From an uncultured Bacteroidota bacterium (GTDB taxonomy: Bacteria > Bacteroidota > Bacteroidia > B-17B0 > Aurantibacillaceae): DNA of 64,000 nt. A model generated the notes under the pieces. That model was not told the DNA's origin. It did no database searches and saw nothing but the letters and a program-made list of their open reading frames with translations. A program made the position numbers and the translations under genes. Position 1 is the stretch's first letter; the number at the start of each line of letters is the position of its first letter. Positions 42,804-59,788 of this stretch are shown here, piece after piece. The stretch is taken from NCBI GenBank assembly GCA_903834765.1, contig CAILKE010000022.1, positions 1 to 64,000 on the forward strand. The letters are read 5' to 3'.

Positions 42804-42843
42804 AAGCCTGTTTAAATTTATGCAAATAAATTTAAACAGGCTT
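42804..42843 (+). terminator. Perfect 18-bp hairpin terminator that matches the MITE end
   Basis: AAGCCTGTTTAAATTTAT at 42804-42821, a GCAA tetraloop, and its exact complement at 42826-42843, followed by T-rich sequence. Seventeen bases (ATAAATTTAAACAGGCT) are identical to the right end of the MITE-like element at 61792-61953. It may be the collapsed remnant of such an element now used to stop transcription of the protease gene. Confidence 0.9.
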
Positions 42844-42908: not shown

Positions 42909-45338
42909 ATGGCCAAACAACAACAAGAAGAAAATAGAACAGCAAATTCAACCAATTTGTACGACTCTTATATTAAGGGTAAAGAGTTATATTATTTAAT
43001 CGGTATATTACTTACTGTTATTTATTTTGTCTTTAGCGATTTTATCATTCTAAAAAAAGTATATCTATTTAGAGATATTGGTAGCGATTCGTTAAACATC
43101 TATTTTCCATGGTTGGCAGGTACTTCAGATTATTTAAAAACGGAATCAAGTTTAGGTTGGTCTTTCTCTCAGGGAATGGGACAAAATTTATTTCCATTAT
43201 GGTTAGGTGATATTTTTTCTAACTTTCTGACTTATTTCGATAAAACCAAAATTCCATATGGCTTAGTATATATGGAAATTATAAAAATATTTTTAACAGG
43301 AATTATCTTCTTCAAATTCTTAAAGGAGTTAAAACTATCAAACTATTCAAGTTTATTATTTTCTTTTCTTTTTGCATTTTCAGGCTTTGTTATTTTAGGT
43401 GGATGCTGGACAATCTTCTCCTTAGAAGCTTTATATGCTGCGGTTATATTATATGGTTTCGAAAGATGGTTGAATTATAACAAATTTGCATGGTTAGTTA
43501 TTGGTATTACTTTAATGGCATTTCTACAACCATTCTTCTTATTCATGTACACTATTTTATTGGCAGCATACGCTATTGTGAGGTATCATGATGTAAATGG
43601 AAAAGATAATAAAGCATTTTTAATATTCGTTTTAAAAACTATTGGTTTAGCTTCAATTGGTGTTTTTATGAGTTCTTATCAATTGTTTGCTGATTTGTTA
43701 CAATACACTGAAAGTCCTCGCGTTGGAGGAGAAGCTAGTTTATTTGCTCGATTACAGCAACACGGCATGTTTGATCCTGCTGATGATGTGTTGAGATTTA
43801 CAACAGTATTTAGAAGTTTTGGAAGCGATATGTTGGGTACTGGTAATAATTTTAAAGGATGGCAAAATTATCTTGAAGCTCCGCTATTTTATTGTGGTAT
43901 TTTTTCACTAGTAACTTTTCCTCAATTTTTTAGTTCATTAAACAAACGTCAAAAATATTTTTATGGCATCCTTACGTTTGTATTTTGTTTGCCAATTATC
44001 TTTCCGTATTTCCGTTATGCATTTTGGGTATTTTCAGGAGATTACTTTAGAACATTTTCTTTAGTAATTATTTTCTTTATGGTTATGTTTTCTGCCAGAG
44101 CAATAAATTACATCGAACAGCAAGGAAAACTTAATAAAATTGTATTAGGTGTTACGGTGTTATTTCTTTTATTCTTGCTTTACACTCCTTCAGCTCAGTA
44201 TAAAGGAGCTATTAATACAAACTTGCGTTCTTTTGTTACATTTTTAATTTTCACTTATGCTGCTTTGTTAATTGGGTTAAGCCAAAAGACGTCAGTAAAA
44301 CATTTATCTAAAATTTTATTGTTAGTAGTATGTATTATTGAGGTAGCGTATATGTCAGGTATTACTGTTAATAAAAGAGATGTCGTAACTCAGAATGTTT
44401 TAAAAGAAAAAGTTGGTTATAATGATTATACGATAGAGGCTGTTAACTACTTAAAACAAAACGATAAGAGTTTTTATAGACTAAATAAGGATTATAGTTC
44501 AGGGTTAGCAATTCATTCTAGCATTAATGATGCAAAGGTGCAAGGCTATTATGGCACTCCATCTTATTTTTCATTCAATCAAAAAAATTATATTAAATTT
44601 TTAGGCGACTTAAATGTGATAGATGTGAAGGATGAAAATTCAACACGTTGGGCCAAAGGATTAGGCGAAAGGCCAATTTTATTTTCTTTAGCTAGTGGTA
44701 AATACTGGTTGTCGAAACGAACAGATAATGCTGTTGCAAATATGGGATTTGACTCCATAGCAAAATTTGGAGATGTAAAAGTATATAAAAATAAATTTGC
44801 TTTACCTTTTGGCTTCACATACAATAAAGCAATTGGAGAAGATGAATTTAAAAAACTATCTCCAACTCAAAAAGATTTTTCTATACTGAGAGCTTGTGTT
44901 ATTGGTAATGAAGATAAAACAACCTTTAGTTTGATTAAACCATTTATCATGACTGATACTCTTGCTCCTGCTACATTTGATAACTATCAAGTTTATGGTA
45001 ATGAATTGAAAAAAGATGAATTTAAAATTTCTAAGTTTTCAGAAAATCATATTATTGGAAATGTAAATACGGCAGATGCTAAGATTTTATTTTTCTCTAT
45101 TCCTTTTGATGAAGGCTGGAAAGCAACTTTAAACGGACAAGAAACTAAGTTGTATAGATTGAATTGCGGATTAACCGGCTTAATGACTCAAAAAGGAAGT
45201 AATTCGGTGGAATTAAAATTTACTCCTAGATTTAAAAAAATAGGAGCATTGGTTTCTTTAATATCATTATTAATGTTTTTAGGATTATTAGCTTTCAGTA
45301 TTTTTAGAAACAAATCCAAATCTAATATTCAGGTGTAA
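42909..45338 (+). CDS. YfhO-family membrane protein, probable GT-C glycosyltransferase
   Basis: An 809-residue protein with about 12 hydrophobic segments spread over residues 30-500, an extracytoplasmic part, and a last helix near 785. Early DIGSDSLNIYFPW and the sequence around it match the YfhO family. In Gram-positive bacteria YfhO takes sugar from an undecaprenyl carrier made by a GT2 enzyme (CsbB) and adds it to teichoic acid. A GT2 of that kind is encoded in this cluster at 50668. The acceptor here is unknown. Its stop overlaps the next ATG (TAATG). Confidence 0.8.
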   Translation: MAKQQQEENRTANSTNLYDSYIKGKELYYLIGILLTVIYFVFSDFIILKKVYLFRDIGSDSLNIYFPWLAGTSDYLKTESSLGWSFSQGMGQNLFPLWLGDIFSNFLTYFDKTKIPYGLVYMEIIKIFLTGIIFFKFLKELKLSNYSSLLFSFLFAFSGFVILGGCWTIFSLEALYAAVILYGFERWLNYNKFAWLVIGITLMAFLQPFFLFMYTILLAAYAIVRYHDVNGKDNKAFLIFVLKTIGLASIGVFMSSYQLFADLLQYTESPRVGGEASLFARLQQHGMFDPADDVLRFTTVFRSFGSDMLGTGNNFKGWQNYLEAPLFYCGIFSLVTFPQFFSSLNKRQKYFYGILTFVFCLPIIFPYFRYAFWVFSGDYFRTFSLVIIFFMVMFSARAINYIEQQGKLNKIVLGVTVLFLLFLLYTPSAQYKGAINTNLRSFVTFLIFTYAALLIGLSQKTSVKHLSKILLLVVCIIEVAYMSGITVNKRDVVTQNVLKEKVGYNDYTIEAVNYLKQNDKSFYRLNKDYSSGLAIHSSINDAKVQGYYGTPSYFSFNQKNYIKFLGDLNVIDVKDENSTRWAKGLGERPILFSLASGKYWLSKRTDNAVANMGFDSIAKFGDVKVYKNKFALPFGFTYNKAIGEDEFKKLSPTQKDFSILRACVIGNEDKTTFSLIKPFIMTDTLAPATFDNYQVYGNELKKDEFKISKFSENHIIGNVNTADAKILFFSIPFDEGWKATLNGQETKLYRLNCGLTGLMTQKGSNSVELKFTPRFKKIGALVSLISLLMFLGLLAFSIFRNKSKSNIQV

Positions 45339-46219
45339 TGAAAATATTAGTCACGGGTGGAAATGGCTTTATTGGCAAAAATATTAAAGAATCATATCTA
45401 GCAAAAAAATATACAATTGTTGCACCTTCTAGATTAGAGTTGGATTGTAGTGATGATAAAAGCGTAGAAGATTATTTCAAGAAGCATTCTTTTGATGTTG
45501 TTATTCATTCTGCGGCAAAAGCAGGACACCGAAATGCAACAGATACAAGTAATTTGTTTTTAACCAACTCACGTATGATGTTTAATTTATTGAAACATCA
45601 AGATAGTTGGGGGAAATTATTAAATATGGGTTCGGGTGCTATTTATGATATGCAAAACTATATTCCAAAAATGCCAGAAACTTATTATGGAACACATATT
45701 CCTAAAGATGAGCATGGATATAACAAATACATATTAGGGAAACTATTACCGAGTTTAAATCATGTGTATGATTTTAGAATATTTGGAATATTTGGTAAGT
45801 ACGAAGATTACGCTATTCGATTTATTTCAAATGCGATTTGTAAATCCATTTTTGATTTACCTATTACATTGCGTCAAAATAAAAAGTTCGATTATCTGTA
45901 TATTAATGATTTGATGCCTATTTTAGAGCATTTTATTGAACATAATCCTACAGAAAAAGCATTTAATATTACACCAAACTACTCAGTTGAATTATTAAAA
46001 ATTGCAGAATTGGTAAAAATGATTTCTCAAAAAGATATTGAGATTAAAATAGCACAAGAAGGATTAGGAATGGAATACAGCGGAGATAATACACTTTTAA
46101 ATAAAGAAATATCGTCCCTTCAATTTACTCCATTAGAAAAATCAATACAAGAATTATACGATTGGTATGAGACAAATAAAAGCAATTTAAATAAAGATTT
46201 ATTAACCAAGGATAAGTAG
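45338..46219 (+). CDS. NAD-dependent sugar epimerase/reductase (extended SDR)
   Basis: A 293-residue extended SDR with the Rossmann start VTGGNGFIGKNI, the Ser/Thr region MGSGAIYD and a catalytic YILGK (YxxxK). The C-terminus resembles GDP-fucose synthase- and dTDP-rhamnose reductase-like proteins. It probably reduces or epimerises a nucleotide sugar or sugar intermediate. It lies at the start of the unusual block and is 3 bp from the thiamine-enzyme gene. Confidence 0.83.
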   Translation: MKILVTGGNGFIGKNIKESYLAKKYTIVAPSRLELDCSDDKSVEDYFKKHSFDVVIHSAAKAGHRNATDTSNLFLTNSRMMFNLLKHQDSWGKLLNMGSGAIYDMQNYIPKMPETYYGTHIPKDEHGYNKYILGKLLPSLNHVYDFRIFGIFGKYEDYAIRFISNAICKSIFDLPITLRQNKKFDYLYINDLMPILEHFIEHNPTEKAFNITPNYSVELLKIAELVKMISQKDIEIKIAQEGLGMEYSGDNTLLNKEISSLQFTPLEKSIQELYDWYETNKSNLNKDLLTKDK

Positions 46220-46222
46220 AAT

Positions 46223-48028
46223 ATGATAAAGGTTTCTGATTTTATAGCAAAATATTTAAAAGATTATGGCGTTGAATATGTTTTTATGGTCACTGGTGGC
46301 GGCGCAATGCATTTAAATGACTCACTTGGTAAAGAGTTAAAATACATCTGCAATCATCACGAACAAGCCTGTGCTATTGCTGCTGAAGGATATGCGCGAA
46401 CAGCCAATCGTTTGGCAGTTGTTAATGTTACAACTGGTCCTGGCGGATTAAATGCTTTAAATGGTGTAATGGGACAATGGACAGACTCAGTTCCAGTTTT
46501 ATATTTATCTGGCCAAGTTAAATTCGAAACAACCATTCATGCTTGTCCAGAAGTGAAAGGATTACGTCAATTAGGAGATCAAGAAGTTGACATTATAAAA
46601 ATTGTATCTCCTATTACAAAGTTTGCATATATGATAACCGATGCAAAGGATATTAAATATTATTTGCAAAAAGCTATCTATGAAGCCACATCTGGTCGTC
46701 CTGGCCCTGTTTGGCTAGATATTCCAATGAACATTCAGGGCGCTTTAGTGAATGAGTTAGAATTAAAATCATTCGAAATTCCTAAAGTAACTGAAGTTTC
46801 AAAAGCTAATTTATCACACCAAATTAAATTAGTTGCTGAGAAATTAAAAACAGCTAAACGTCCCGTTATACTTGCTGGACATGGAGTTAGAATTTCAGAT
46901 GGTATTAATGAATTACATACTTTATTAAATAATTGTGATATTCCTGTTGTTACTACTTTTAACGGAATTGATAGCATAGATGATGATCATAAAAATTACA
47001 TTGGACGTTTTGGAACATTAGGAAACAGAGCTGGTAATTTTACCGTTCAAAACGCAGATGTCTTAATAACAATTGGAACAAGAAATAACATTCGTCAAGT
47101 AAGTTATAATTGGGAATTTTTCGCAAGAGAATCTTATAAAATTATTGTTGATATTGATGAAGCAGAATTATTAAAACCAACCGTTAATCCAGATTTAGCA
47201 GTATGTTCAGATGCTAAAGAGTTTATTATGTTATTAATTAATGAATTAAACACATCTATTTCTGGACAACATCAAGATTGGTTAAATTGGGCAAAGAATC
47301 GTAAAGATAAATATCCGAGTGTTTTACCAGAATATCATCATACCAAAGATGGAGTTCATCCATATGTTTTCATGGAATTATTAGGGAAGCAACTTCCTGA
47401 AAATTCTATATGTGTAACTGGCGATGGAACAGCATGCGTAGCGCCATTTCAAGCGATGCCAATCAAAAATAAAGCTCGTGTTTTTTGGAATAGTGGTTGT
47501 GCATCTATGGGTTATGATTTACCTGCGGCAATTGGAGCATGCGTAGCTAGCAATTTTCATGATGTAATTTGCTTAGCTGGAGATGGAAGTTTACAAATGA
47601 ATATTCAAGAGCTTCAAACTGTTATACACCATCAAATGCCTATTAAAATTATTTATTTAAATAACGATGGTTATGTATCAATAAAACAAACTCAAGATGG
47701 CTTCTTTGGAGGACATAGAGTTGGAAGCGATCCTAAATCAGGAGTAAGTTTTCCAAATATTTTAAAACTAGGAGATGCTTATGGATTTAAAACACATCAA
47801 ATTTCTTCTCATAAAAACCTAGATAAAGAAATTGAATATATATTATCTCAAGAAGGACCAATGATTTGTGAGGTAATTTTAACAAATGACTATAAATTTT
47901 TTCCAAAAGTTGCTTCTAAAAAATTAGATGATGGACGAATGATTTCTGCGCCTTTAGAGGATTTAGCGCCATTTTTAGACAGAGAAGAATTCAGATCTAA
48001 TCTATTTATAAAAGAATATTTAGGATAA
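46223..48028 (+). CDS. Thiamine diphosphate-dependent enzyme (acetolactate synthase-like)
   Basis: A 601-residue enzyme with the three-domain ThDP fold. The catalytic Glu is in CNHHEQACAIAAEGYAR, and TGPGGLNALNG with PVLYLSGQV follow. The ThDP-binding motif is GDGSLQMNIQELQTVI, ending in YLNNDGY. Housekeeping IlvB genes normally sit with ilvC, ilvD and ilvN; none are here. The neighbours (aldolase, SDR, sugar-phosphate cyclase, CDP-dideoxyhexose genes) favour a sugar-modifying role such as that of YerE, which couples pyruvate to a keto-dideoxy sugar. Substrates are not known. Confidence 0.85.
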   Translation: MIKVSDFIAKYLKDYGVEYVFMVTGGGAMHLNDSLGKELKYICNHHEQACAIAAEGYARTANRLAVVNVTTGPGGLNALNGVMGQWTDSVPVLYLSGQVKFETTIHACPEVKGLRQLGDQEVDIIKIVSPITKFAYMITDAKDIKYYLQKAIYEATSGRPGPVWLDIPMNIQGALVNELELKSFEIPKVTEVSKANLSHQIKLVAEKLKTAKRPVILAGHGVRISDGINELHTLLNNCDIPVVTTFNGIDSIDDDHKNYIGRFGTLGNRAGNFTVQNADVLITIGTRNNIRQVSYNWEFFARESYKIIVDIDEAELLKPTVNPDLAVCSDAKEFIMLLINELNTSISGQHQDWLNWAKNRKDKYPSVLPEYHHTKDGVHPYVFMELLGKQLPENSICVTGDGTACVAPFQAMPIKNKARVFWNSGCASMGYDLPAAIGACVASNFHDVICLAGDGSLQMNIQELQTVIHHQMPIKIIYLNNDGYVSIKQTQDGFFGGHRVGSDPKSGVSFPNILKLGDAYGFKTHQISSHKNLDKEIEYILSQEGPMICEVILTNDYKFFPKVASKKLDDGRMISAPLEDLAPFLDREEFRSNLFIKEYLG

Positions 48029-48102
48029 TTTTTTTTATATTAGGAATCGTATTATATTTAAAGTATCTAAAAATTAAAACTTAAAACATAAGAATAAAAT
48101 AT

Positions 48103-48924
48103 ATGAATAATTTAGAAAAGAAAATGGTTGACCAATTGAAAGATTTGAAAGAAAATCATCATGCAATTGGAATTAAAGCTGAGTTTGAAGCTGAAGGTAC
48201 ACGTTTAGAGGAAGCGCTTCGTTTAAAAGAAGTAATTACTAAAGCTGGTTTAGATTTAACTATTAAAATTGGCGGTTGTGAAGCCTTAAAAGATATGTAT
48301 GATTCCCGTTCTATAGGTGTTACTCGAATTGTAGGACCAATGATAGAAACAGCTTATGCTTTGAAGAAATTTTTATCATGTGCTAATCTGGCTTTCCCAG
48401 AAGACGAGCGAAAAGAAGTTGATTTCTTAATTAATGTGGAAACAATATCTACCGTTAAAAATTTTGATGAGATGTTGGCTTTACCAACAATCAATGAATT
48501 AAAAGGAATTGTCATTGGGCGTGTTGATATGACAGGCTCTTTGGGGTTAACACGTGAGCATATTAATTCTGATGAAATCGGTAAAATATGTACAGAAGTA
48601 TTAGCAAAGGCTAAGAAATTTAATGGAATGGAATGCGTTATAGGAGGTGGAGTTTCTGAGGCATCATTACCTTTTTTTGATCAATACACAAATGGTCATT
48701 TAGATAAATTTGAAACTCGTAAAGTATTATTTGATGCTAAGCAGGCAACATTAGCTAACGGCGGAGATAAAGGTATTTTAAAAGCTGTTGGTTTTGAATT
48801 ATTGTGGTTGAAAAACAAACGTAACTTCTATGGTATGATTTATAAAGAAGATGAAAATCGTATTGAAATGTTACAAAAACGTTACGATAAGTTGATTGAA
48901 CAAGCTGGTGGCAAATATGAATAA
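48103..48924 (+). CDS. HpcH/HpaI-type aldolase/citrate lyase-family protein
   Basis: A 273-residue TIM-barrel protein of the HpcH/HpaI/CitE family. Metal and substrate residues are in IKAEFEAEGTRLEE, INVETISTV and VIGRVDMTGSLGL. Members split or form carbon-carbon bonds with pyruvate or related keto acids. It follows the ThDP enzyme after 74 bp and overlaps the SDR by 8 bp, so the three probably act in one pathway. It is not obviously one of the aromatic-degradation enzymes. Confidence 0.82.
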   Translation: MNNLEKKMVDQLKDLKENHHAIGIKAEFEAEGTRLEEALRLKEVITKAGLDLTIKIGGCEALKDMYDSRSIGVTRIVGPMIETAYALKKFLSCANLAFPEDERKEVDFLINVETISTVKNFDEMLALPTINELKGIVIGRVDMTGSLGLTREHINSDEIGKICTEVLAKAKKFNGMECVIGGGVSEASLPFFDQYTNGHLDKFETRKVLFDAKQATLANGGDKGILKAVGFELLWLKNKRNFYGMIYKEDENRIEMLQKRYDKLIEQAGGKYE

Positions 48925-49582
48925 AACAGTTTTAATTACTGGTGCTAGTAGAGGAATTGGCAAGGCATGTGCAGAAGTATTTTCGAAGCATGGTTATACT
49001 GTTTATGCACCAAGTAGGAAAGAACTAGATTTATTATCCACTAAAAGTATCAAAGCTTATATTTCATCATTAAATCATCCTATTGATGTATTGATTAATA
49101 ATGCAGGTGTTAATCCATTGGCATATATTGGTGAAATCGATTTTGAAAATGCTCATCAGTTAATTGATACTAATTTTTGGGCACCTGTAATTCTAACAGA
49201 TTTATTGGCTCCAAAAATGAAAGAGCGTGGCTACGGTCGTATTGTGAATATTAGCTCTATTTGGAGCGGTGTAACAAAAGCTGGTCGTTCAATGTATGCT
49301 TCTTCAAAAGCAGCAATCAATGCATTCACAAGAACAGCAGCCGTAGAATATGCTAGTTCTAATGTATTAATTAATGCGGTCGCTCCTGGATATGTTAATA
49401 CCGAGTTGACTAAAATTAATAATACCCCAGAACAAATTGAGGTTATTAAATCTAATTTGCCCATTAATCGCTTGGCAGAGCCTTCAGAAATAGCTGAATT
49501 AATTTATTTTTTAGCATCCGAAAAAAATTCCTTTGTCACAGGTCAAACAATTTTTGCAGACGGAGGTTATAGTATTGTTTAA
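48917..49582 (+). CDS. Short-chain dehydrogenase/reductase (FabG-like)
   Basis: A 221-residue classical SDR: TGASRGIGKA cofactor motif, NNAG, the Ser in VNISSI, and YASSK (YxxxK). The ATG at 48917 is chosen over an upstream TTG because it starts just before the Rossmann motif; it overlaps the aldolase gene by 8 bp (ATGAATAA). In this setting it probably reduces a keto group made by the neighbouring enzymes rather than a fatty-acid intermediate. Confidence 0.86.
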   Translation: MNKTVLITGASRGIGKACAEVFSKHGYTVYAPSRKELDLLSTKSIKAYISSLNHPIDVLINNAGVNPLAYIGEIDFENAHQLIDTNFWAPVILTDLLAPKMKERGYGRIVNISSIWSGVTKAGRSMYASSKAAINAFTRTAAVEYASSNVLINAVAPGYVNTELTKINNTPEQIEVIKSNLPINRLAEPSEIAELIYFLASEKNSFVTGQTIFADGGYSIV

Positions 49583-49589
49583 AAAAATT

Positions 49590-50666
49590 ATGAGCCAAGT
49601 AAAAAATATACATTCAAGTATTCATAATTATGAAATTTATTTTGAAAATGATTTTTCATTTTTAAAACAACTTCTTGAAACTAAAGAAGCTGTTTTTATT
49701 ATTGATAAAAATATTTTTAATTTATATCAAACTCATTTTAGTTCTATTGCTAAATCTGAAAATGTATTAGTTTTAGATGCAATTGAAGAAAACAAGACTC
49801 TAGCAGCATCAGAAGTTATTTTTGATAAAGTGATTTCTTTAAAGCCTACAAAAAAAACAAAAATTATTTCTTTTGGTGGTGGTATTACGCAGGATGTTAG
49901 TGGCTTTGTGGCTTCGACTTTTTACAGGGGTTTAAATTGGATTTATGTGCCAACTACATTATTAGCTCAGGCTGATAGCTGTATGGGAAGTAAAACTTCT
50001 TTAAATTATAAATCTTATAAAAATATTTTAGGGACGTTTTATCCGCCACATCAAATTTATATTTGTCCTGAATATACTAATACACTCACAGAAGAAGATT
50101 TTTATAGTGGTATGGGAGAAGTTGTAAAACTTCATACAATGGGCGGAATTGAAACGTTAGATAAATTAATAACTCAGTTACCTAAAATACACCAAAGAGA
50201 TATCAATACTATTTTAAACGCAACTCAATCTTCTTTGGATATTAAGTGGACATACATGGATGGCGATGAATTTGATCAGGGCAAACGTAATTTATTAAAT
50301 TATGGTCATGAATTTGGTCACGCGATTGAAACAGCAACGCATTATAAAATTCCTCATGGTCAAGCTATAATTATAGGAATGATAATGGCTAATTATATTT
50401 CTTACACTAAACAAGTCATCACCAAACCAACCGTTGAGAAAATCGAAAATGTATTTATTCAATTATTAAAAACTGATGTCTCTGTATTGAAAACGGTTGC
50501 TTCAATTGATATTATTAGCCCTATGAAACAAGATAAAAAACGTATAGGAAATAAATTACCTTTAATTATGATGGATGAAAGTTATAATTTTATAAAAATA
50601 TTAGATTTGACAGAAGAAGAAGCTGTATTGGCTATCGATTACTTTAAAAACACATATTGTAAATAA
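49590..50666 (+). CDS. Sugar-phosphate cyclase (3-dehydroquinate synthase-like)
   Basis: A 358-residue protein of the DHQS superfamily: GGGITQDVSGFVAS (NAD-binding), PTTLLAQADSCMGSKT, GMGEVVKL with the metal-binding Glu, and RNLLNYGHEFGHAIE plus PHGQAI with the metal-binding His residues. The canonical AroB motif DSSVGGKTG is changed to DSCMGSKTS, and GLAEVIKYG to GMGEVVKLH. Other members make cyclitols, such as 2-deoxy-scyllo-inosose or 2-epi-5-epi-valiolone. The start at ATG 49590 replaces an upstream TTG that would overlap the SDR. A cyclitol role is inference. Confidence 0.84.
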   Translation: MSQVKNIHSSIHNYEIYFENDFSFLKQLLETKEAVFIIDKNIFNLYQTHFSSIAKSENVLVLDAIEENKTLAASEVIFDKVISLKPTKKTKIISFGGGITQDVSGFVASTFYRGLNWIYVPTTLLAQADSCMGSKTSLNYKSYKNILGTFYPPHQIYICPEYTNTLTEEDFYSGMGEVVKLHTMGGIETLDKLITQLPKIHQRDINTILNATQSSLDIKWTYMDGDEFDQGKRNLLNYGHEFGHAIETATHYKIPHGQAIIIGMIMANYISYTKQVITKPTVEKIENVFIQLLKTDVSVLKTVASIDIISPMKQDKKRIGNKLPLIMMDESYNFIKILDLTEEEAVLAIDYFKNTYCK

Positions 50667-50667
50667 A

Positions 50668-51612
50668 TTGGAAACACGAAAAAAACATATTTCAGTATTA
50701 ACAGCATGCTATAATGAGGAAGAAAATGTTGCATCTCTTGTAGTAGCCGTTGCAGAAGTATTTAAAAAAATGCCTCAATACACCTATGAGCATGTTTTTA
50801 TTGATAATAGTTCTGCAGATAAAACCGTTGCTATTTTGCGAGAAATTGCAAAAACTGATAAGAATGTTAAAGTGATTGTTAATGCTCGAAATTTTGGGCA
50901 TATTCGTTCCCCTTTTCATGGCTTGATTCAATGCAAGGGAGATGCCGTTATTTCATTAGTTGCTGATTTTCAAGATCCTCCTGAGATGATTGAAAAATTT
51001 TTATCTAAATGGGAAGAAGGTTTTAAAATTGTTATTGGTATAAAAAAAAGTAGTAAAGAAAATCCTTTGATGTTTGCAGTCAGAAAATTTTTTTATAACC
51101 TGTTAGCAAGCGCTTCTGGAAGTGATTCAACAATAAAAAACTTTACAGGTTTTGGGTTATATGACCAGCAATTTATTTCGGTGTTAAGAGATTTAGATGA
51201 CCCATATCCTTATTTTAGAGGTTTAGTTACCGAATTAGGTTTTGAGCGTTTTGAAATAAACTATACTCAGCCTGAGAGAGCAGGTGGTAAAACTAAAAAT
51301 AATTTTTTCACCTTGTATGATATGGCGATGCTAGGTTTTACAAATCATTCTAAATTGCCACTTCGACTGTCCGCATTTATAGGGTTCTTTTCTGCAATCA
51401 TTAGTTTATTAGTTGCCATTGGTTATTTAGTATATAAACTAATGTATTGGGATACTTTTCAAGCTGGAACAGCACCTATGGTAATAGGTGTATTTTTCTT
51501 TTCGTCTGTTCAATTATTTTTTATAGGAATAATAGGTGAGTATATTGGAGCGATACATACACAAGTACGCAAGAGACCTTTAGTAATTGAAAAAGAAAGA
51601 ATTAATTTTTAA
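50668..51612 (+). CDS. GtrB/CsbB-type GT2 glycosyltransferase
   Basis: A 314-residue inner-membrane glycosyltransferase: GT2 domain (about 1-225) with LTACYNEEENV, the DNSSADKT motif, and VADFQDPPEMI in place of DxD, then two C-terminal membrane helices. This plan is that of enzymes that link a sugar to undecaprenyl phosphate (GtrB, ArnC, CsbB). The start is TTG at 50668, two bases after the cyclase stop; no ATG lies nearby. It could supply the sugar used by the YfhO-like protein. Confidence 0.86.
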   Translation: METRKKHISVLTACYNEEENVASLVVAVAEVFKKMPQYTYEHVFIDNSSADKTVAILREIAKTDKNVKVIVNARNFGHIRSPFHGLIQCKGDAVISLVADFQDPPEMIEKFLSKWEEGFKIVIGIKKSSKENPLMFAVRKFFYNLLASASGSDSTIKNFTGFGLYDQQFISVLRDLDDPYPYFRGLVTELGFERFEINYTQPERAGGKTKNNFFTLYDMAMLGFTNHSKLPLRLSAFIGFFSAIISLLVAIGYLVYKLMYWDTFQAGTAPMVIGVFFFSSVQLFFIGIIGEYIGAIHTQVRKRPLVIEKERINF

Positions 51613-51634: not shown

Positions 51635-52405
51635 ATGAAAGTAGTTATTCTAGCAGGTGGATTAGGAACTCGAATTTCGGAGGAAACTGATACACGTCCA
51701 AAACCAATGGTAGAAATAGGAGGAAAACCTATTTTATGGCATATTATGAAAATATATAGCCATTATGGTTATAATGAATTTGTAGTATGTTTAGGCTATA
51801 AAGGTCATTTTATAAAAGAATATTTTTCGAATTTATTTTTACATCACTCTGATGTAACTTTTGATTTGGCTAATAATAAAATGGAAGTGCATAACTCAGA
51901 TACTGAAAAATGGAAAGTTACATTAGTTGATACTGGTAAAGATACATTAACCGGCGGACGTATCAAACGTATTGAAAAGTATGTAAATAACGAAACGTTT
52001 ATGTTAACCTATGGAGATGGTGTAAGTAATGTTGATATTCATGAATTATTAAAAACACATCAAGCTAATAAAAAATTAGCTACTGTTACAGCTGTTCAAC
52101 CAAGTGGTCGATTTGGGGCTTTAGGCATTAACGAACAAGGATTAGTTGAATCATTTTTTGAAAAACCGAAAGGAGATGGAAGTTGGATAAACGGAGGTTT
52201 TTTTGTTTGTGATCCTGGCGTTTTTAAATATATAGATGGAGATACAACTATATGGGAACAAGCTCCATTAGAAAACTTAGCAAAAGATAACCAATTAATG
52301 TCTTTTAAACATAGAGGATTCTGGAAACCAATGGATACATTAAAAGACAAACAAGATTTAAATGAATATTGGGAAAAGGGAAATGCTGAATGGAAAATTT
52401 GGTAA
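51635..52405 (+). CDS. rfbF: Glucose-1-phosphate cytidylyltransferase
   Basis: A 256-residue nucleotidyltransferase that makes CDP-glucose from CTP and glucose-1-phosphate, the first step to 3,6-dideoxyhexoses. Motifs are LAGGLGTRISEETDTRPKPM, YGDGVSNVDI (metal-binding Asp) and FFEKPKGDG with WINGGFFV. The ATG at 51635 is preferred over a TTG at 51587 because it starts right at the nucleotide-binding loop. Length is normal. Confidence 0.94.
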   Translation: MKVVILAGGLGTRISEETDTRPKPMVEIGGKPILWHIMKIYSHYGYNEFVVCLGYKGHFIKEYFSNLFLHHSDVTFDLANNKMEVHNSDTEKWKVTLVDTGKDTLTGGRIKRIEKYVNNETFMLTYGDGVSNVDIHELLKTHQANKKLATVTAVQPSGRFGALGINEQGLVESFFEKPKGDGSWINGGFFVCDPGVFKYIDGDTTIWEQAPLENLAKDNQLMSFKHRGFWKPMDTLKDKQDLNEYWEKGNAEWKIW

Positions 52406-54438: not shown

Positions 54439-55311
54439 ATGAATTTGAAGAAAGTATTAATAACAGGAGCAACTGGATTTTTAGGAAGCAGTTTGTTAAA
54501 GCAACTTCTAAAAGATGGATATGATATATCAATCTTGAAAAGAAGTACTTCTAATTTATTTAGATTAAAAGGCTTTGAACATCTTTTTTCTTCATATAAT
54601 ACAGATGAAATTTCTGTTGATGAATGTTTATCAATAGTAAAACCAAATGTTGTAATTCATTGTGCTACAGATTATGGTAGAAAAAATGTTGAACCTTCTT
54701 TTATTATTGATGCCAATTTGATATTGCCGTTAAAGTTGTTAGAACTTTGCAGGAAATATAATGTTCAATGTTTTATAAATACAGATACCTATTTAGATAA
54801 GGGAATTAATTATTATAGTTTGTCTAAAAAACAGTTTAGCGAATGGTTAAATACCTATTCAAAAGATCTAATTTGTGTAAATATTATTTTAGAACATTTT
54901 TATGGTCCTTTTGATGATAAAACAAAATTTGTTTCTTTTATTATTGATAAATTTATGAGTAATGATAAAGCAATCGATTTAACATTAGGAGAGCAAAAAC
55001 GCGATTTTATTTATGTAGATGACGTTGTAAATGCTTTTTTGTATGTAATTAAAAATATACCTAAAATGCAAAAAGGAATATATAATTTTGGAATAGGCAC
55101 AAATCAACAAATAAAAATTAAAGATTTAGTTCTATTAGCGAAAAAAGTATCGAAAAATACTCAAACGCAGCTAAACTTTGGAGCAATACCATATCGCATC
55201 AATGAAATTATGGATTCAGATATAAATACCACTGAAATTAGAAAATTAGGGTGGAAACCAGAATATTCTATCGAAGTAGGTTTGGAAAAAATGATTAATT
55301 TAGAAAAATAA
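54439..55311 (+). CDS. CDP-abequose/paratose synthase-like reductase
   Basis: A 290-residue extended SDR: TGATGFLGSS cofactor motif, HCATDYGR, NTDTYLDK and a catalytic YSLSK. Segments LEHFYGPFDDKTKF, GEQKRDFIYVDDVVNAF and FGAIPYRINEIM match the abequose synthase RfbJ and paratose synthase RfbS group, which reduce CDP-4-keto-3,6-dideoxyglucose. Which epimer it makes cannot be told from sequence; the downstream tyvelose-epimerase-like gene favours paratose. Confidence 0.78.
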   Translation: MNLKKVLITGATGFLGSSLLKQLLKDGYDISILKRSTSNLFRLKGFEHLFSSYNTDEISVDECLSIVKPNVVIHCATDYGRKNVEPSFIIDANLILPLKLLELCRKYNVQCFINTDTYLDKGINYYSLSKKQFSEWLNTYSKDLICVNIILEHFYGPFDDKTKFVSFIIDKFMSNDKAIDLTLGEQKRDFIYVDDVVNAFLYVIKNIPKMQKGIYNFGIGTNQQIKIKDLVLLAKKVSKNTQTQLNFGAIPYRINEIMDSDINTTEIRKLGWKPEYSIEVGLEKMINLEK

Positions 55312-55322
55312 TATATACCGAA

Positions 55323-56357
55323 ATGAAAATATTAATTACTGGAGGCTGTGGTTTTTTAGGAACTAATTTGGCAGAAAAAATATTGTCTGAAAATAAATCG
55401 GAACTTTTTATTATTGATAATTTGGTACGTTTAGGTAGCGAAACAAATTTGGCTTGGTTAAAAGAAAAAGGAAAAGGAAAATTTACTTTTTTTGAGCAAG
55501 ATGTTAGATTTGCTGATATAATTGATAAAACCATTGGTGATATTAAACCTGATGTAATTTTTCACTTGGCAGGTCAAGTTGCAATGACAACTTCAATCTC
55601 AAACCCAAGAAATGATTTTGAAATAAATGTTTTAGGTACTTTTAATATTTTAGAGTCTGTGAGAAAGCATAATCCAAATTGTACCATTGTTTATTCTTCA
55701 ACTAATAAAGTATATGGTGATTTAGAATGGACTCCTTATGAGGAAACTGAGAAACGGTATATTGCGACAGAATTTAAAAATGGATTTCCTGAAAACATAC
55801 AGTTAAGTTTTCATTCACCTTACGGTTGTTCAAAAGGAGCTGCTGATCAATACATGTTAGACTATCATCGTATTTTTGATTTAAAAACAGTAGTTTTTAG
55901 GCATTCATCCATGTATGGTGGCCGACAGTTTTCTACCTACGATCAAGGTTGGTTAGGTTGGTTTTGCCAAAAAGCACTTGAAACAAAAAATAATACATTA
56001 AAAGAACCATATACTATTTCAGGTAATGGTAAGCAAGTTCGAGATTTACTTCATAGTGAAGATATGATAAATCTTTACTTTGCAGCAGCTCAAAATATTG
56101 ATACAATTCAAGGTCAAGCATTTAATATTGGTGGTGGAATGAGCAATAGTTTATCATTATTAGAATTATTTGATGTTTTAGAAAATGAATTGGATGTGAA
56201 ATTGGAGTATCAAAAATTGCCATTTAGATCGAGTGATCAAAAAGTTTTTGTAGCTGATATTTCTAAATACTCAAAAGCAACTGGCTGGATACCTAATGTT
56301 GATAAAATTTCAGGAATTAAAAAAATGATTAATTGGGTTGCTGAAAATGGAAAATAA
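55323..56357 (+). CDS. rfbE: CDP-paratose 2-epimerase (CDP-tyvelose-type)
   Basis: A 344-residue extended SDR with TGGCGFLGTN, STNKVYGD and catalytic YGCSK. The long HSSMYGGRQFSTYDQGW stretch is a hallmark of RfbE, which converts CDP-paratose to CDP-tyvelose. It is 11 bp after the reductase gene and overlaps the next GT2 gene by 11 bp. Confidence 0.85.
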   Translation: MKILITGGCGFLGTNLAEKILSENKSELFIIDNLVRLGSETNLAWLKEKGKGKFTFFEQDVRFADIIDKTIGDIKPDVIFHLAGQVAMTTSISNPRNDFEINVLGTFNILESVRKHNPNCTIVYSSTNKVYGDLEWTPYEETEKRYIATEFKNGFPENIQLSFHSPYGCSKGAADQYMLDYHRIFDLKTVVFRHSSMYGGRQFSTYDQGWLGWFCQKALETKNNTLKEPYTISGNGKQVRDLLHSEDMINLYFAAAQNIDTIQGQAFNIGGGMSNSLSLLELFDVLENELDVKLEYQKLPFRSSDQKVFVADISKYSKATGWIPNVDKISGIKKMINWVAENGK

Positions 56358-57048
56358 AATAGACTTAAGTATTGTTATTCCTTCTTATTTAGAAGAAGAA
56401 AATTTAAGAATACTTTTACCACGAATCAATAAATCATTGTCTGATATAGGAATTTCAAACGAAATTTTAATTATAGACACTATAAACCCATTGGATAATA
56501 CGCAACTAGTTTGCGTAGATTTTAATAATGTGAAATATATTAATCGGGAGAATGGAAATAAGTATGGTGATGCAGTAAGAACAGGAATTAAATATGCAAT
56601 TGGTAATCGAATTTTATTTATGGATGCAGATGGTTCTCATTCACCTGAATTTATAGCAAATTTATATGAATTTCGTGAAGGTAACGACGTTGTCATTGCA
56701 TCAAGATTTGTTGAAGGTGGAGGCAGCGATAATAAAAAGATACTCATCCTTATGAGTTGGACAGTAAATTTTATTTATTCCGTATTATTTAACTTAAAAT
56801 GTAAAGATGTCTCAAATAGTTTTAAGTTATACAATGGCGAACTTATAAAATCTATTATTATTAATTGTGACAATTTTGATGTTGTAGAAGAAATTTTAAT
56901 TAAGCTCAAAAGAAATAAGAAAGATTTGAAACTGAAAGAAATTCCTTATATGTTCAAAGAAAGAATGTTTGGAAACACCAAACGAAATTTATTAGCTTTT
57001 GTGTTTTCATATATTTTCACCTTAATAAGATTAAAGTTTAGTAAATAA
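56347..57048 (+). CDS. DPM1-like GT2 glycosyltransferase
   Basis: A 233-residue GT2 protein with VIPSYLEEENL and the MDADGSHSPEFI metal-binding motif as in dolichol/polyprenyl-phosphate mannosyltransferases. Apart from one weak hydrophobic stretch near the end it has no membrane helices. The ATG at 56347 overlaps the rfbE stop by 11 bp; an upstream TTG is less likely. It probably builds a lipid-linked sugar or extends the glycan. Confidence 0.82.
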   Translation: MENKIDLSIVIPSYLEEENLRILLPRINKSLSDIGISNEILIIDTINPLDNTQLVCVDFNNVKYINRENGNKYGDAVRTGIKYAIGNRILFMDADGSHSPEFIANLYEFREGNDVVIASRFVEGGGSDNKKILILMSWTVNFIYSVLFNLKCKDVSNSFKLYNGELIKSIIINCDNFDVVEEILIKLKRNKKDLKLKEIPYMFKERMFGNTKRNLLAFVFSYIFTLIRLKFSK

Positions 57049-57049
57049 T

Positions 57050-58117
57050 ATGTTAGATTTATTCAATAATATATATCGCGATAAAAAAGTTCTTATTACT
57101 GGTCATACTGGTTTTAAAGGTTCATGGATGGCAATTTGGCTTAAAGAGTTGGGAGCTGAGGTGTATGGATACGCTTTGCCTCCCGTAACAAAAAAAGATA
57201 ATTTTGTTACTACGAATCTTTCCGAAAAAATAAATCATCAAGATGGAGATGTCAGAGATTTAGAGGAATTGAAAAACTATTTTGAAAAAGTACAGCCAGA
57301 TATTGCTTTTCATTTAGCAGCTCAACCCTTAGTAATTGATTCATATAACAATCCTCATTATAATTTTGAAACGAATTTAATGGGAACAGTTAATTTTTTT
57401 GAGGCAGTAAGAAATTGTCCATCTGTAAAAGTAGCGATCAATGTTACAACTGATAAATGCTATCAAAATAATGAATGGCTTTGGGGATATCGCGAAAATG
57501 ATGCCATGGGGGGAGATGATCCATATAGTGCATCAAAAGGCTGCTCAGAATTAATTACTAATTCATATATCAAATCTTTTTTTAGTAAAGAAAATACTGC
57601 GAATGTTGCATCTGGCAGAGCTGGAAATGTTATTGGTGGAGGAGATTGGGCAGACAATCGAATACTACCTGATATGTTAAGAGCTTATCAAAATCAAGAA
57701 GTTTCAAATATTAGAAATCCAAACTCAGTAAGACCTTGGCAATTTGTTTTAGAACCGTTATTTGGCTATATGAAATTAGGAGAAAAATTATGGGCTAATG
57801 GAAAATCATTTTCGGGCGGTTGGAATTTTGGACCAGCTGCTTTTGAAAATTATAGTGTTGGAGATGTTGTGAATGAAGTAAAAAAAATAATCCCAACTAT
57901 AAAAATTGATTCTCCTAATGCAACTGAAAAACTTCATGAAGCTGGTTTATTAAAATTAGACATTACTAAAGCAGTAAATTTATTGAATTGGAAACCTAAA
58001 TTAAACTTTGAAGAAACAATTCAATTTACCATTAACGGTTATTTAGACGAATTAGATCCACTAAACAATATATACGATTGTCGTGTTAAACAGATAGAGA
58101 GTTATTGTAGTAAATAG
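57050..58117 (+). CDS. rfbG: CDP-glucose 4,6-dehydratase
   Basis: A 355-residue extended SDR that converts CDP-glucose to CDP-4-keto-6-deoxyglucose. Motifs are ITGHTGFKGSWMAIWL, the Thr in NVTTDKCYQN and catalytic YSASK (DPYSASKGCSE). The ending with EKLHEAGLLKLDITKAVNLLNWKP is typical. It comes after rfbE and is separated from rfbH by a decayed insertion. Confidence 0.94.
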   Translation: MLDLFNNIYRDKKVLITGHTGFKGSWMAIWLKELGAEVYGYALPPVTKKDNFVTTNLSEKINHQDGDVRDLEELKNYFEKVQPDIAFHLAAQPLVIDSYNNPHYNFETNLMGTVNFFEAVRNCPSVKVAINVTTDKCYQNNEWLWGYRENDAMGGDDPYSASKGCSELITNSYIKSFFSKENTANVASGRAGNVIGGGDWADNRILPDMLRAYQNQEVSNIRNPNSVRPWQFVLEPLFGYMKLGEKLWANGKSFSGGWNFGPAAFENYSVGDVVNEVKKIIPTIKIDSPNATEKLHEAGLLKLDITKAVNLLNWKPKLNFEETIQFTINGYLDELDPLNNIYDCRVKQIESYCSK

Positions 58118-58407: not shown

Positions 58408-58467
58408 ACTTATACGGTTCAAAATATAAAAAAAACAATAACCTTATATGACTTATATGGTTCAAAA
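58408..58467 (+). repeat. Tandem copies of the right repeat
   Basis: GACTTATACGGTTCAAAA at 58408-58425 and GACTTATATGGTTCAAAA at 58450-58467 are direct repeats 42 bp apart. The second one includes the right inverted repeat (58443-58461). The copies suggest local duplication or repeated insertion at this end. Confidence 0.7.
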
Positions 58468-58480
58468 ACAAAAAACAACT

Positions 58481-59788
58481 ATGTCAAAATTATTAGATAT
58501 TAAACATCAAATACACACTCTTATAAAAGAGTATCATGATGAAGCATTTAAACAAAAAGCATTTGAACCTGGAGAATCTGCAGTTCCTGTGAGTGGAAAA
58601 GTATTTGATCACACAGAATTAACTTACATTACTGATTCTGCTTTGGATGCTTGGTTTACAACAGGGAAATTTAACGCTGAATTCGAAAAAAAATTAGCAA
58701 AGTATATTAATGTAAAATCTTTACTAACCGTTAATTCTGGGTCGTCTGCCAATTTGGTCGCATTTTCAGCCCTAACTGCAAAGGAACTAGGCGACAAGGC
58801 CATTAAACCTGGTGATGAGGTAATAACCGTTGCCGCCTCTTTTCCTACAACCGTTAATCCTATTTTACAATATGGAGCTATACCAGTATTTTTAGATGTT
58901 ACCATTCCTCATTACGAAATTGATGTTACTCATTTAGAAGCTGCGCTTAGTGCAAAAACTAAAGCCGTTGTGATAGCTCATACCATGGGAAATGTATTTA
59001 ATTTAGATGTGATAACTGCATTTTGTGAGAAACATAATTTATGGTTAATGGAAGATTGTTGCGACGCATTAGGAGCCACTTACAAAGGTAAACATGTTGG
59101 AACCTTTGGAGATGTAGGAACATTAAGTTTTTACCCAGCACATCATATTACAATGGGAGAAGGCGGAGCCGTGTATACCTCAAATTCTAAACTAAAAAAA
59201 ATAATAGAATCTTTTAGGGATTGGGGACGTGATTGCTGGTGCGAACCAGGAAAAGATAACACATGTGGCTTACGTTTTTGTCAGCAATTAGGTGATTTAC
59301 CAATGGGTTATGATCATAAGTATATTTATTCTCGTCAAGGATTTAATTTAAAGATTACCGATATGCAAGCTGCACTAGGCTTAGCTCAATTAGAAAAATT
59401 AGATGAATTCATTAAAATAAGACGACATAATTTTAATTTATTAAAACAAGGCTTAGCTAAACATATTAATAAATTAATATTGCCAGAAGCTACTCCAAAT
59501 TCAGAGCCTTCTTGGTTTGGTTTTTTAATTACCGTTAAAAAAGATGCAGGTATCAGTCGAAACGACTTCGTTCAAAAATTAAACGATAAAAAAGTTGCTA
59601 CTCGATTATTATTTGCTGGTGATTTGCGTAAACAACCTTACTTCAAAGGAATTAATTACCGTGTTGTAGGAGATTTAACAAATACGGATATCATTGTAAA
59701 TGATACTTTTTGGATAGGCGTAACTCCTATGATTAATGATGAAATGATTACATATATGATTTCATGTTTTGATGAAATTTTAAGTTAA
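58481..59788 (+). CDS. rfbH: CDP-4-keto-6-deoxyglucose 3-dehydrase (E1)
   Basis: A 435-residue PMP-dependent, [2Fe-2S] enzyme that removes the C3 hydroxyl to give 3,6-dideoxy sugars. The usual PLP lysine is replaced by His in [13 protein letters not shown], as in the AscC/RfbH class, and cysteines in [24 protein letters not shown] fit the iron-sulfur site. The ATG at 58481 is chosen: earlier in-frame ATGs at 58448 and 58457 lie inside the right repeat of the adjacent cassette. The required reductase partner (RfbI/AscD, E3) is not in the window. Confidence 0.93.

Follow-up and report, generated by a model that had tools for sequence, protein, structure and literature searches.

A block of genes shared by many bacterial groups, and analyzed here in a window of 64,000 nucleotides (the whole stretch of DNA studied, from contig CAILKE010000022.1 of an uncultured Bacteroidota bacterium), probably serves to make an unusual branched sugar of the cell surface. 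Within this block CYC, a relative of the shikimate-pathway enzyme AroB (3-dehydroquinate synthase), appears to take a phosphatase's place. What points most to function is the alternation of CYC and its partner SDR2 with HAD phosphatases in related clusters, which was not visible to the preliminary description of this DNA. The core of this reading, a branched sugar with an aldol-derived side chain in whose synthesis CYC acts as the phosphate-removing step, is considered likely.

Organization of the Gene Block

All genes lie on the forward strand in the order YfhO-type gene, SDR1, ThDP enzyme, ALD, SDR2, CYC and GT2, with RfbF, RfbG and RfbH downstream. The gene for the YfhO-type membrane protein (42909–45338; PF09586, 243.6 bits) is followed by SDR1 of the extended SDR/epimerase family (45338–46219; PF01370 (Epimerase), 84.4 bits), the YerE-like ThDP-dependent carboligase (46223–48028; TPP_enzyme_N, M and C), ALD, a divergent HpcH/HpaI-type pyruvate aldolase (48103–48924), the classical SDR termed SDR2 (48917–49582 with ATG at 48917; adh_short and adh_short_C2, the latter 156 bits when scanned from 48920), and the DHQS-like CYC (49590–50666; DHQ_synthase and DHQS_C). 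The gene set and order of the five-gene run from SDR1 to CYC are as first described, judged by ORF coordinates and family profiles. The tight packing also stands, but the several overlaps of 1–8 bp mentioned with it were slightly generous: there are two, of 1 bp (YfhO-type/SDR1) and 8 bp (ALD/SDR2), and the gaps are 3 bp (SDR1/ThDP), 74 bp (ThDP/ALD), 7 bp (SDR2/CYC) and 1 bp (CYC/GT2).

The surface-glycan setting is borne out by RfbF (glucose-1-phosphate cytidylyltransferase; 51635–52405; TIGR02623, 422 bits, cut-off 300), RfbG (CDP-glucose 4,6-dehydratase; 57050–58117; TIGR02622, 465 bits, cut-off 278) and RfbH (CDP-4-keto-6-deoxyglucose 3-dehydrase; 58448–59788; NF011936, 715 bits, cut-off 423), all above their curated cut-offs. 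GT2 (50668–51612; PF00535, 82.3 bits) is of the polyprenyl-phosphate (GtrB/DPMS-like) kind; its top NCBIfam match is PgfS at 178 bits, below the cut-off of 500, and elsewhere, as in L042, its relatives adjoin GtrA genes. The YfhO-type protein, presumably a GT-C glycosyltransferase, probably works with the block, and a YfhO-like gene also lies immediately 5′ of SDR1 in L056, L060, L062 and L063. The transcription unit may start upstream, before the YfhO-type gene; a stem resembling a terminator (18 pairs, 42804–42843) precedes that gene, found in a scan that gave five such sites where 4.1 (sd 1.9) were expected.

The ThDP Enzyme and Its Probable Sugar Acceptor

The ThDP enzyme is matched best, among solved structures, by 8rph (392 bits), with AHAS structures at 260 bits or less. 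A GDG motif is seen in its alignment, and 8rph, which we take to be JanthE, carries CDG; this motif is also given for JanthE in the available part of a review (PMC12247030). By sequence, the nearest relative of the block's enzyme is probably JanthE, a YerE-like carboligase. Against the acetolactate synthase (AHAS) equivalog it reaches 376.7 bits and fails the cut-off of 538.35, whereas a separate IlvB copy in the same genome (C65) scores 748.7, in agreement with the view that the block enzyme is not the genome's IlvB. Plasmid matches to it (40 listed of 60) are mostly acetolactate synthases of 29–33% identity.

The acceptor of YerE is CDP-4-keto-3,6-dideoxyglucose, and ErwE prefers 4-hydroxy-2-oxo acids, as far as the sections of the review at hand describe them (PMC12247030); the latter are the kind of product that a pyruvate aldolase makes. 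Since RfbF, RfbG and RfbH form a deoxy-ketosugar pathway whose product is this very YerE-type acceptor, a branched sugar, one of two products proposed at first, is well supported. More than 200 YerE-like enzymes are predicted, very few of which have a known sugar; in the accessible text of the same review the words "dehydroquinate" and "cyclase" occur 0 times (PMC12247030). The ThDP enzyme resembles the YerE/ErwE/JanthE group in its closeness to 8rph and in the acceptor genes within the window, but differs from it in its linkage to an aldolase and to a DHQS-family enzyme or a phosphatase.

CYC Is Distinct from AroB and from the Cyclitol Synthases Compared

CYC only just passes the cut-off of 400 for TIGR04425 (401.2 bits with hmmscan, 400.9 in the genome search), a family named "AroB-related putative sugar phosphate phospholyase" by NCBIfam; a literature search by this family name found no paper naming it. 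Block CYC proteins pass this cut-off in 16 of the 27 genomes that have one and score 369–399 in 10; the match in the remaining genome is a fragment. CYC fails the aroB equivalog (258.8 bits, cut-off 305), which a separate AroB copy in the same genome (C46) passes with 332.5 bits, and a second homologue is present in 26 of the 27 genomes. In a tree, 39 TIGR04425 rows split from 27 AroB-like rows with a support of 100/100. After AroB of E. coli and Leptospira was added together with DOIS and sedoheptulose-7-phosphate (S7P) cyclases, the 39 rows still fell on one side (support 100), and the AroB rows needed three changes.

The preliminary description had argued that CYC is not the genome's AroB; another aroB was indeed found, and CYC groups apart from true AroB. 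That a housekeeping AroB and acetolactate synthase lie by chance in a glycan cluster has only family-level similarity in its favor and, provided that the other copies are active, is scarcely credible, because both proteins fail curated cut-offs that copies elsewhere in the genome pass, CYC stands apart at 100/100 and nearly all block-CYC genomes hold the second homologue. Duplicates of AroB and IlvB were rejected on the same cut-offs, passing copies and separate CYC clade.

The active site tells more about the likely substrate. All 14 AroB active-site positions checked, for DAHP, metal and NAD (Aspergillus AroB numbering for R264, N268, K356, K250 and H275), are kept in 34 of 34 block CYC proteins, a set without the L058 fragment, and the AroB set compared comprised usable proteins from 27 of 29 loci; no table of active-site residues was found in the available passages of the AroB literature. 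R264, N268 and K356, all kept in CYC, are changed in one DOIS (L166: G, E and N) and in three S7P cyclases (L167–L169: E/K/S, D and A/V). K250 and H275 are also changed in the three S7P cyclases, and DOIS keeps K250. The fold is common to CYC and AroB (Z about 41), DOIS (38.5), EEVS (37.8) and DDGS (35.9), but CYC differs from the DOIS and S7P cyclases compared in having all three residues. An EEVS/DOIS-like synthase of a classical cyclitol, the other product proposed at first, was rejected for CYC on these residues, changed in all four references. Since CYC keeps AroB positions that the DOIS and S7P cyclases compared have lost, its substrate is probably, as far as residues can tell, a DAHP-like keto acid phosphate rather than the sugar phosphate from which a classical cyclitol would be made. 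The match speaks for likeness of substrate and not for identity of role: CYC shares with AroB the fold and the metal, NAD and substrate residues, but it forms its own clade below the aroB cut-off, is paired with SDR2, and is located with ALD and the ThDP enzyme or in other glycan clusters.

Among the plasmid matches listed (the 30 best and 60 spread over the ranking, of 115 records), none is a close relative of CYC; they are AroB, "DHQS family", DOIS and S7P-cyclase genes or unannotated sites, at 22–34% identity. Cys131 and Ser137 are invariant in block CYC, and the AroB proteins compared have Ser and Gly/Ala there.

The Aldolase and the Reductases

ALD could be the source of a DAHP-like keto acid phosphate for CYC. 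Its match to PF03328 (HpcH_HpaI) is weak (32.1 bits, cut-off 25), and its predicted model (pLDDT 95) has fold Z scores of 18–19 to SbnG, HpaI and HpcH, tied with pyruvate kinase. K55, E113 and D142 are invariant in 43 of 43 proteins; in an alignment placed by eye, E113 and D142 fit the presumed metal-binding Glu/Asp motif of HpcH/HpaI class II aldolases, and Lys55 stands where HpaI has Arg70, the role of which is likewise assumed. Both this lysine and the equal match to pyruvate kinase count against ALD as drawn in the pathway below. Three plasmid matches to ALD were found, none with the block (L051 and L052 checked).

SDR2 is present in 27/27 CYC loci and in 0/35 others (62 loci, before the tblastn additions given below). 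SDR1 lies no more than 6 kb from ALD in 23 of the 27 CYC loci and in 26 of the 35 without CYC; it was not found near four CYC loci, some of them close to contig ends, and in L078 an acyltransferase takes its place.

Recurrence of the Block and Alternation with HAD Phosphatases

ALD loci with a ThDP neighbor are spread over many phyla, often in clusters with RfbF, RfbG and RfbH. The proposal that the block keeps together elsewhere thus holds, co-occurrence being found widely, and the association of its genes is more than chance. From 102 confirmed ALD loci 80 were kept, and the comparison was made on 65 rows, which include the window as a CYC row and three loci found by tblastn (L066, L105, L109). 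Set aside were 11 loci that lack a same-strand ThDP enzyme in the 6 kb around ALD (L064, with SDR2 and CYC, among them), four too short to show the slot (L053, L055, L082, L107) and L127, a long branch with neither CYC nor HAD. Next to ALD and the ThDP enzyme, SDR2 and CYC alternate with an HAD phosphatase: 27 rows have only CYC, 30 only HAD, two both (L059, L101) and six neither (25, 28, 2 and 7 before the tblastn loci were added). The Fisher p is 2.6e-10, to be read with the rows not being independent and the pattern having been noticed in the same data that were counted.

Trees allow for this relatedness. In the ThDP tree, supported branches yield 11 independent pairs that differ in CYC; HAD differs the opposite way in 7.6 and the same way in 0.3 of them on average (median p 0.016). 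The ALD tree gives six pairs, with 4.3 against 0.1 (median p 0.125). The CYC label must change at least 6 times on supported branches of the ALD tree and at least 11 times on those of the ThDP tree, so that aldolases and ThDP enzymes that are nearly identical function alongside either CYC or HAD. In L077 and L078, DNA identity of about 85% extends to the final base of ALD and returns at most 10 bases from the start of the ThDP gene; between them lie HAD and an acyltransferase in one and SDR2 with CYC in the other.

TIGR04425 and SDR2 also occur at eight loci with neither ThDP enzyme nor ALD, so that further substrates are possible for CYC. The idea that a pyruvyl-condensing enzyme is found wherever TIGR04425 occurs was weakened here: a canonical HpcH aldolase is present in three of the eight (L155, L156, L157) and was not found at L154, L180, L181, L182 or L183, nor was there an HpcH match in the whole genome of L154. 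In L158 a NeuB-family synthase lies directly 3′ of CYC, with ThDP enzyme, SDR2 and RfbF/G/H present and no ALD found, an arrangement that favors the pathway proposed below.

These eight loci suggest that the pair can work alone, and the AroB-like residues of CYC would also suit the making of a free carbocyclic (quinate-like) acid from a DAHP-like substrate by CYC and SDR2, apart from the ThDP branch, the clustering being explained by both products ending in the same glycan. Such a route gives no reason for the alternation with HAD beside ALD and the ThDP enzyme and would deprive ALD of its donor-making role in CYC clusters, and it is judged improbable.

A Proposed Pathway and Ring Closure as Its Main Rival

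The preferred reading, the core with deoxygenation, is a pathway to a 4-C-branched 3,6-dideoxyhexose, and is thought somewhat more probable than all others together. The whole block would make this nucleotide-linked sugar and hand it to a lipid carrier. First, RfbF, RfbG and RfbH would form CDP-4-keto-3,6-dideoxyglucose, as their families indicate. Second, ALD may condense pyruvate with a tetrose 4-phosphate, proposed by likeness to DAHP alone (D-erythrose 4-phosphate would be the simplest), to a DAHP-like 3-deoxy-2-ulosonate 7-phosphate. Third, the phosphate would be removed, in the sister clusters apparently by the HAD phosphatase; because of the alternation with HAD, CYC and SDR2 are placed at this step, CYC through AroB chemistry (oxidation, beta-elimination of phosphate and re-reduction) and SDR2 by reducing the ketone left by CYC. 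Most likely the 2-keto acid would survive and the chain end become CH(OH)-CH3, a terminal deoxygenation to which we give slightly less than an even chance. Fourth, to judge from family and neighbors, the YerE-like enzyme would decarboxylate the keto acid and join the resulting acyl group to the CDP-ketosugar at C4. Fifth, SDR1 may reduce the new ketone from the ThDP step, and sixth, GT2 and the YfhO-type enzyme would attach the sugar. The product predicted for CYC clusters is caryophyllose or a stereoisomer, and for HAD-type clusters a terminally hydroxylated analogue.

AroB intermediates readily close a ring, so deoxygenation needs CYC to prevent closure, and NCBI calls the TIGR04425 family "cyclizing". 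The main rival, accordingly, is that CYC truly cyclizes and gives a sugar with a C-linked cyclohexane: ALD and the ThDP enzyme would first put a phosphorylated C6 acyl chain on C4 of CDP-4-keto-3,6-dideoxyglucose, CYC would then eliminate phosphate and close the chain on the acyl ketone, SDR2 would reduce the ring ketone, and HAD-type clusters would stop at the open chain. AroB-type chemistry does end in ring closure, with all AroB positions checked kept in CYC, and the ALD and ThDP trees are unsorted by type, as expected if CYC or HAD acts after both. However, K250 and R264, which presumably bind the DAHP carboxylate, are invariant in CYC although the ThDP product has lost that group, a pocket with AroB-matching residues would need to accommodate a CDP-sugar, and SDR1 is kept in most CYC loci although closure would consume its presumed ketone. 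Ring closure is therefore regarded as unlikely, even as carbocyclic glycan sugars exist, e.g., bradyrhizose, which the available part of its report describes as bicyclic, with genes unknown in 2016 (PMC4743980). The loci with both HAD and CYC or with neither, and those in which SDR1 is missing or replaced, weigh against the preferred pathway.

If deoxygenation is right, CYC and SDR2 would carry out a new reaction of the AroB superfamily, CH(OH)-CH2-OPO3 to CH(OH)-CH3 without a ring, by a pair exchangeable with phosphatases; this is put forward tentatively. Bacteria of many phyla would then switch a terminal CH3 for CH2OH by swapping one cassette, and a route to caryophyllose-type side chains would be explained. 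Should CYC close a ring after all, the block would lead to C-linked carbocyclic sugars. Exchange of the SDR2–CYC and HAD cassettes should alter the surface sugar, and TIGR04425, so far named only as putative, gains a functional hypothesis.

Comparison with Known Sugars and Pathways

YerE-type branched sugars are known already; YerE-like enzymes are now tied to a proposed donor pathway of an aldolase followed by phosphate removal, and the block suggests testable reactions for sugars of unknown origin. In caryophyllose of Mycobacterium marinum a 3,6-dideoxyhexose bears a 1,3,4,5-tetrahydroxyhexyl branch, according to passages of PMC5706390, and this 4-C branch ends in CH3, as predicted for CYC clusters. 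It is made with the YerE-like enzyme MMAR_2332 (PMC5706390; PMC12247030), and passages of four M. marinum papers name no dehydroquinate synthase or aldolase genes. Searches of the literature on the gene combination gave Francisella passages unrelated to the block, and those on Spirochaeta aurantia nothing of use.

The logic of the HAD-type clusters resembles that of KDO synthesis, in which pyruvyl condensation with a sugar phosphate is followed by phosphate removal by the HAD phosphatase KdsC. CYC clusters differ from it in that an AroB-family enzyme and SDR2 replace the phosphatase and the keto acid is thought to pass to the ThDP enzyme.

Gene run and separation from housekeeping enzymes

The five-gene run of the preliminary description, consisting of SDR1, a thiamine diphosphate (ThDP) enzyme, an HpcH/HpaI-type aldolase (ALD), SDR2 and a DHQS-like cyclase (CYC), is present as described in this genome of 3.6 Mb and 79 contigs, and extends both ways, to a YfhO-type gene upstream and to a GT2 gene, RfbF, RfbG and RfbH downstream. 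A terminator-like stem for both strands (42804-42843; near-perfect, 18 pairs, T-rich flanks) was also noted. In a genome of the same genus, a CYC 82% identical lies at a contig end and is followed by GT2, RfbF, RfbG and RfbH genes, the ALD portion being expected past the contig edge. SDR3, SDR4 and a GT2 gene (54439-57048) may form a paratose/tyvelose-like branch drawing on the same CDP-ketosugar; SDR3 and SDR4, partly with the GT2 gene, are found jointly again in five other loci (L067, L085, L094, L098 and L164).

The view that CYC is not AroB and the ThDP enzyme not IlvB was borne out. With 401.2 bits CYC just clears the TIGR04425 cut-off of 400, but its 258.8 bits with the aroB equivalog fall below the cut-off of 305, which a second DHQS of the genome passes with 332.5 bits; in a tree of 66 rows, 39 TIGR04425 proteins were split from 27 AroB-like proteins of related genomes with support of 100/100, CYC falling outside the AroB-like side. 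CYC was therefore rejected as the AroB of this genome, from which it is separate by sequence. The ThDP enzyme was likewise rejected as its acetolactate synthase, since it reaches 376.7 bits with that equivalog (cut-off 538.35) and a copy on contig C65 reaches 748.7. A second homologue with a lower score occurs in 26 of the 27 genomes bearing a block CYC, the exception being that of locus L070. Ten of these 27 genomes score 369-399 and so fall short of the 400-bit TIGR04425 cut-off, by which the family is under-called; one further case is a fragment.

Recurrence of the block

An alignment of eight ALD proteins was searched against genome contigs, and the best 80 of 102 confirmed relatives were kept. 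The co-occurrence looked for by the preliminary description was found: ALD-ThDP loci with CYC appear as a conserved block in Bacteroidota, Chlorobiota, Elusimicrobiota, Margulisiibacteriota, Melainabacteria, Wirthbacteria, Lentisphaerota, Myxococcota (a 'Deltaproteobacteria' record) and Campylobacterota, as judged from record titles. One record (L106, genome G517) is titled 'uncultured Acinetobacter'; the sample of its phylum also contains the L078 genome, whose title is Melainabacteria, and the title of L106 looks wrong. Few genomes in the three phyla sampled have TIGR04425 at an E value of 1e-90 or better: 11/395 in the window's phylum, 9/386 in that of G517 and 4/398 in that of a third genome, G516. 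ALD at 1e-10 was detected in 9/395 genomes of the window's phylum, including a weak match without the block (L049).

Outside the block, ALD relatives of 39-45% identity are carried by plasmids of Ilyobacter polytropus and Novosphingobium humi; the former adjoins an aconitase-like gene, a 2-hydroxyacid dehydrogenase and a 2-hydroxycarboxylate transporter, neighbours that suggest hydroxy-acid catabolism. A metallo-beta-lactamase-fold gene, distantly RNase Z-like, lies near RfbG in five Chlorobi and other clusters (L045, L046, L047, L116 and L121).

Alternation with HAD phosphatases

SDR2 and CYC alternate with HAD-type phosphatases. Near ALD and ThDP genes, 27 of 65 rows have CYC only, 30 HAD only, 2 both and 6 neither (Fisher p 2.6e-10, the rows being non-independent), while SDR2 is present in 27/27 CYC loci and 0/35 others. 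HAD was called, up to 6 kb away and on one strand with ALD, by a HAD motif or by similarity to any of six reference HADs, which by Pfam and NCBIfam are HAD-IIA (L045), HAD-IA related to Gph/PpaX (L072, L126) and HAD-IA related to phosphoglucomutase-like HADs (L128), the two of L060 being recognised by motif only; as background, 2/29 CYC loci have a HAD in reach. On mixture-model trees the CYC label needs 16 (ALD) and 17 (ThDP) changes against about 21 when shuffled, and is thus partly clustered; the minimum imposed by supported branches is 6 changes for ALD and 11 for ThDP, and a simpler model forced 8-10. Among pairs on independent supported branches, HAD was opposite in 7.6 and the same in 0.3 of 11 on the ThDP tree (median p 0.016), and opposite in 4.3 and the same in 0.1 of 6 on the ALD tree (median p 0.125).

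Cassette exchange is visible in DNA between loci L077 and L078, whose identity of about 85% stops at the last ALD base (10819 in both) and picks up within the first ThDP bases (12594 and 12520); the stretch in between carries HAD and acyltransferase genes (L077) or SDR2 and CYC (L078). The SDR1 place is taken by SDR1 in L077 and by an acyltransferase in L078.

Putative substrate and reactions

A phosphatase and an AroB-type phospholyase have in common that they release phosphate from a sugar-like phosphate. Since closely related ALD and ThDP enzymes work with either CYC or HAD, a phosphorylated aldol product is probable in CYC and HAD clusters alike. The substrate of AroB is DAHP, a 3-deoxy-2-ulosonate 7-phosphate, and a pyruvate aldolase acting with erythrose 4-phosphate would give a DAHP-like compound. 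The 14 positions of the AroB active site that were checked (Aspergillus numbering) are identical in 34/34 block CYCs and 27/27 AroB-like proteins. An annotated DOIS (n = 1) has D119, R264, N268 and K356 changed and K250 kept, and annotated sedoheptulose-7-phosphate cyclases (n = 3) have K250, R264, N268, H275 and K356 changed; R264, N268 and K356 are thus altered in both, whereas CYC keeps them. The CYC model (pLDDT 94) matches DHQS structures at fold Z of about 41, DOIS at 38.5 and EEVS at 37.8, a ranking that by itself says little.

ALD has a weak Pfam match, and searches by sequence against NCBIfam and PDB gave none; its confident model matches SbnG, HpaI and HpcH at Z 18-19, with pyruvate kinase tied, and ALD is accordingly classed as a divergent HpcH/HpaI-group member. 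Its probable metal ligands are invariant, but a Lys takes the place of the expected Arg. In one locus (L158), a search for ALD found no match; the gene directly downstream of CYC is of the NeuB family (PF03102, 121.9 bits), and the cluster also holds ThDP, SDR2 and RfbF/G/H. This single case supports a 3-deoxy-2-keto acid as the shared intermediate. No CMP-sugar synthetase was detected among the genes scanned near this CYC.

The nearest solved relative of the ThDP enzyme by sequence is 8rph (392 bits), followed by acetolactate synthases (at most 260); a GDG motif of the window's ThDP enzyme aligns with CDG in 8rph. According to a review (PMC12247030), JanthE is YerE-like with a CDG motif, YerE attaches a pyruvate-derived two-carbon unit to CDP-3,6-dideoxy-4-keto-D-glucose, and ErwE prefers 4-hydroxy-2-oxo acids. 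RfbF/G/H of the window should supply this acceptor.

From sequence we infer the reactions of the block and their order as follows. If CYC precedes the ThDP enzyme, the C2 ketone must survive, and therefore no ring would be formed on it; CYC and then SDR2 would yield a 3,7-dideoxy-2-keto acid, which ThDP ligation and reduction by SDR1 would convert to a 1,3,4,5-tetrahydroxyhexyl branch, the same as that given for caryophyllose (PMC5706390). If CYC instead acted after the ThDP enzyme, it could close a ring. Because CYC keeps carboxylate-type residues and SDR1 lies near 23 of 27 CYC genes, action of CYC before the ThDP enzyme, with no ring, is tentatively preferred, although cyclisation is what AroB chemistry favours.

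TIGR04425 and SDR2 outside the block

TIGR04425 adjoins SDR2 without ThDP and ALD in eight loci examined (L154-L157, L180-L183), where the pair may serve another sugar; every TIGR04425 locus in the phylum of G516 is of this kind. Their neighbours, identified partly by Pfam and otherwise by tblastn, include a GmhA-like SIS gene (7/8), a GFO/IDH/MocA gene (7/8), a CTP-transferase (7/8; the L183 copy is cut by the contig end), a 2-hydroxyacid dehydrogenase (6/8) and a canonical HpcH aldolase (3/8). L181 has none of these, and RfbF/G-like genes instead. K197 is replaced by His in all four proteins checked (L154-L157). A PF04199-type gene and another small gene are common to L154, L156 and L157.
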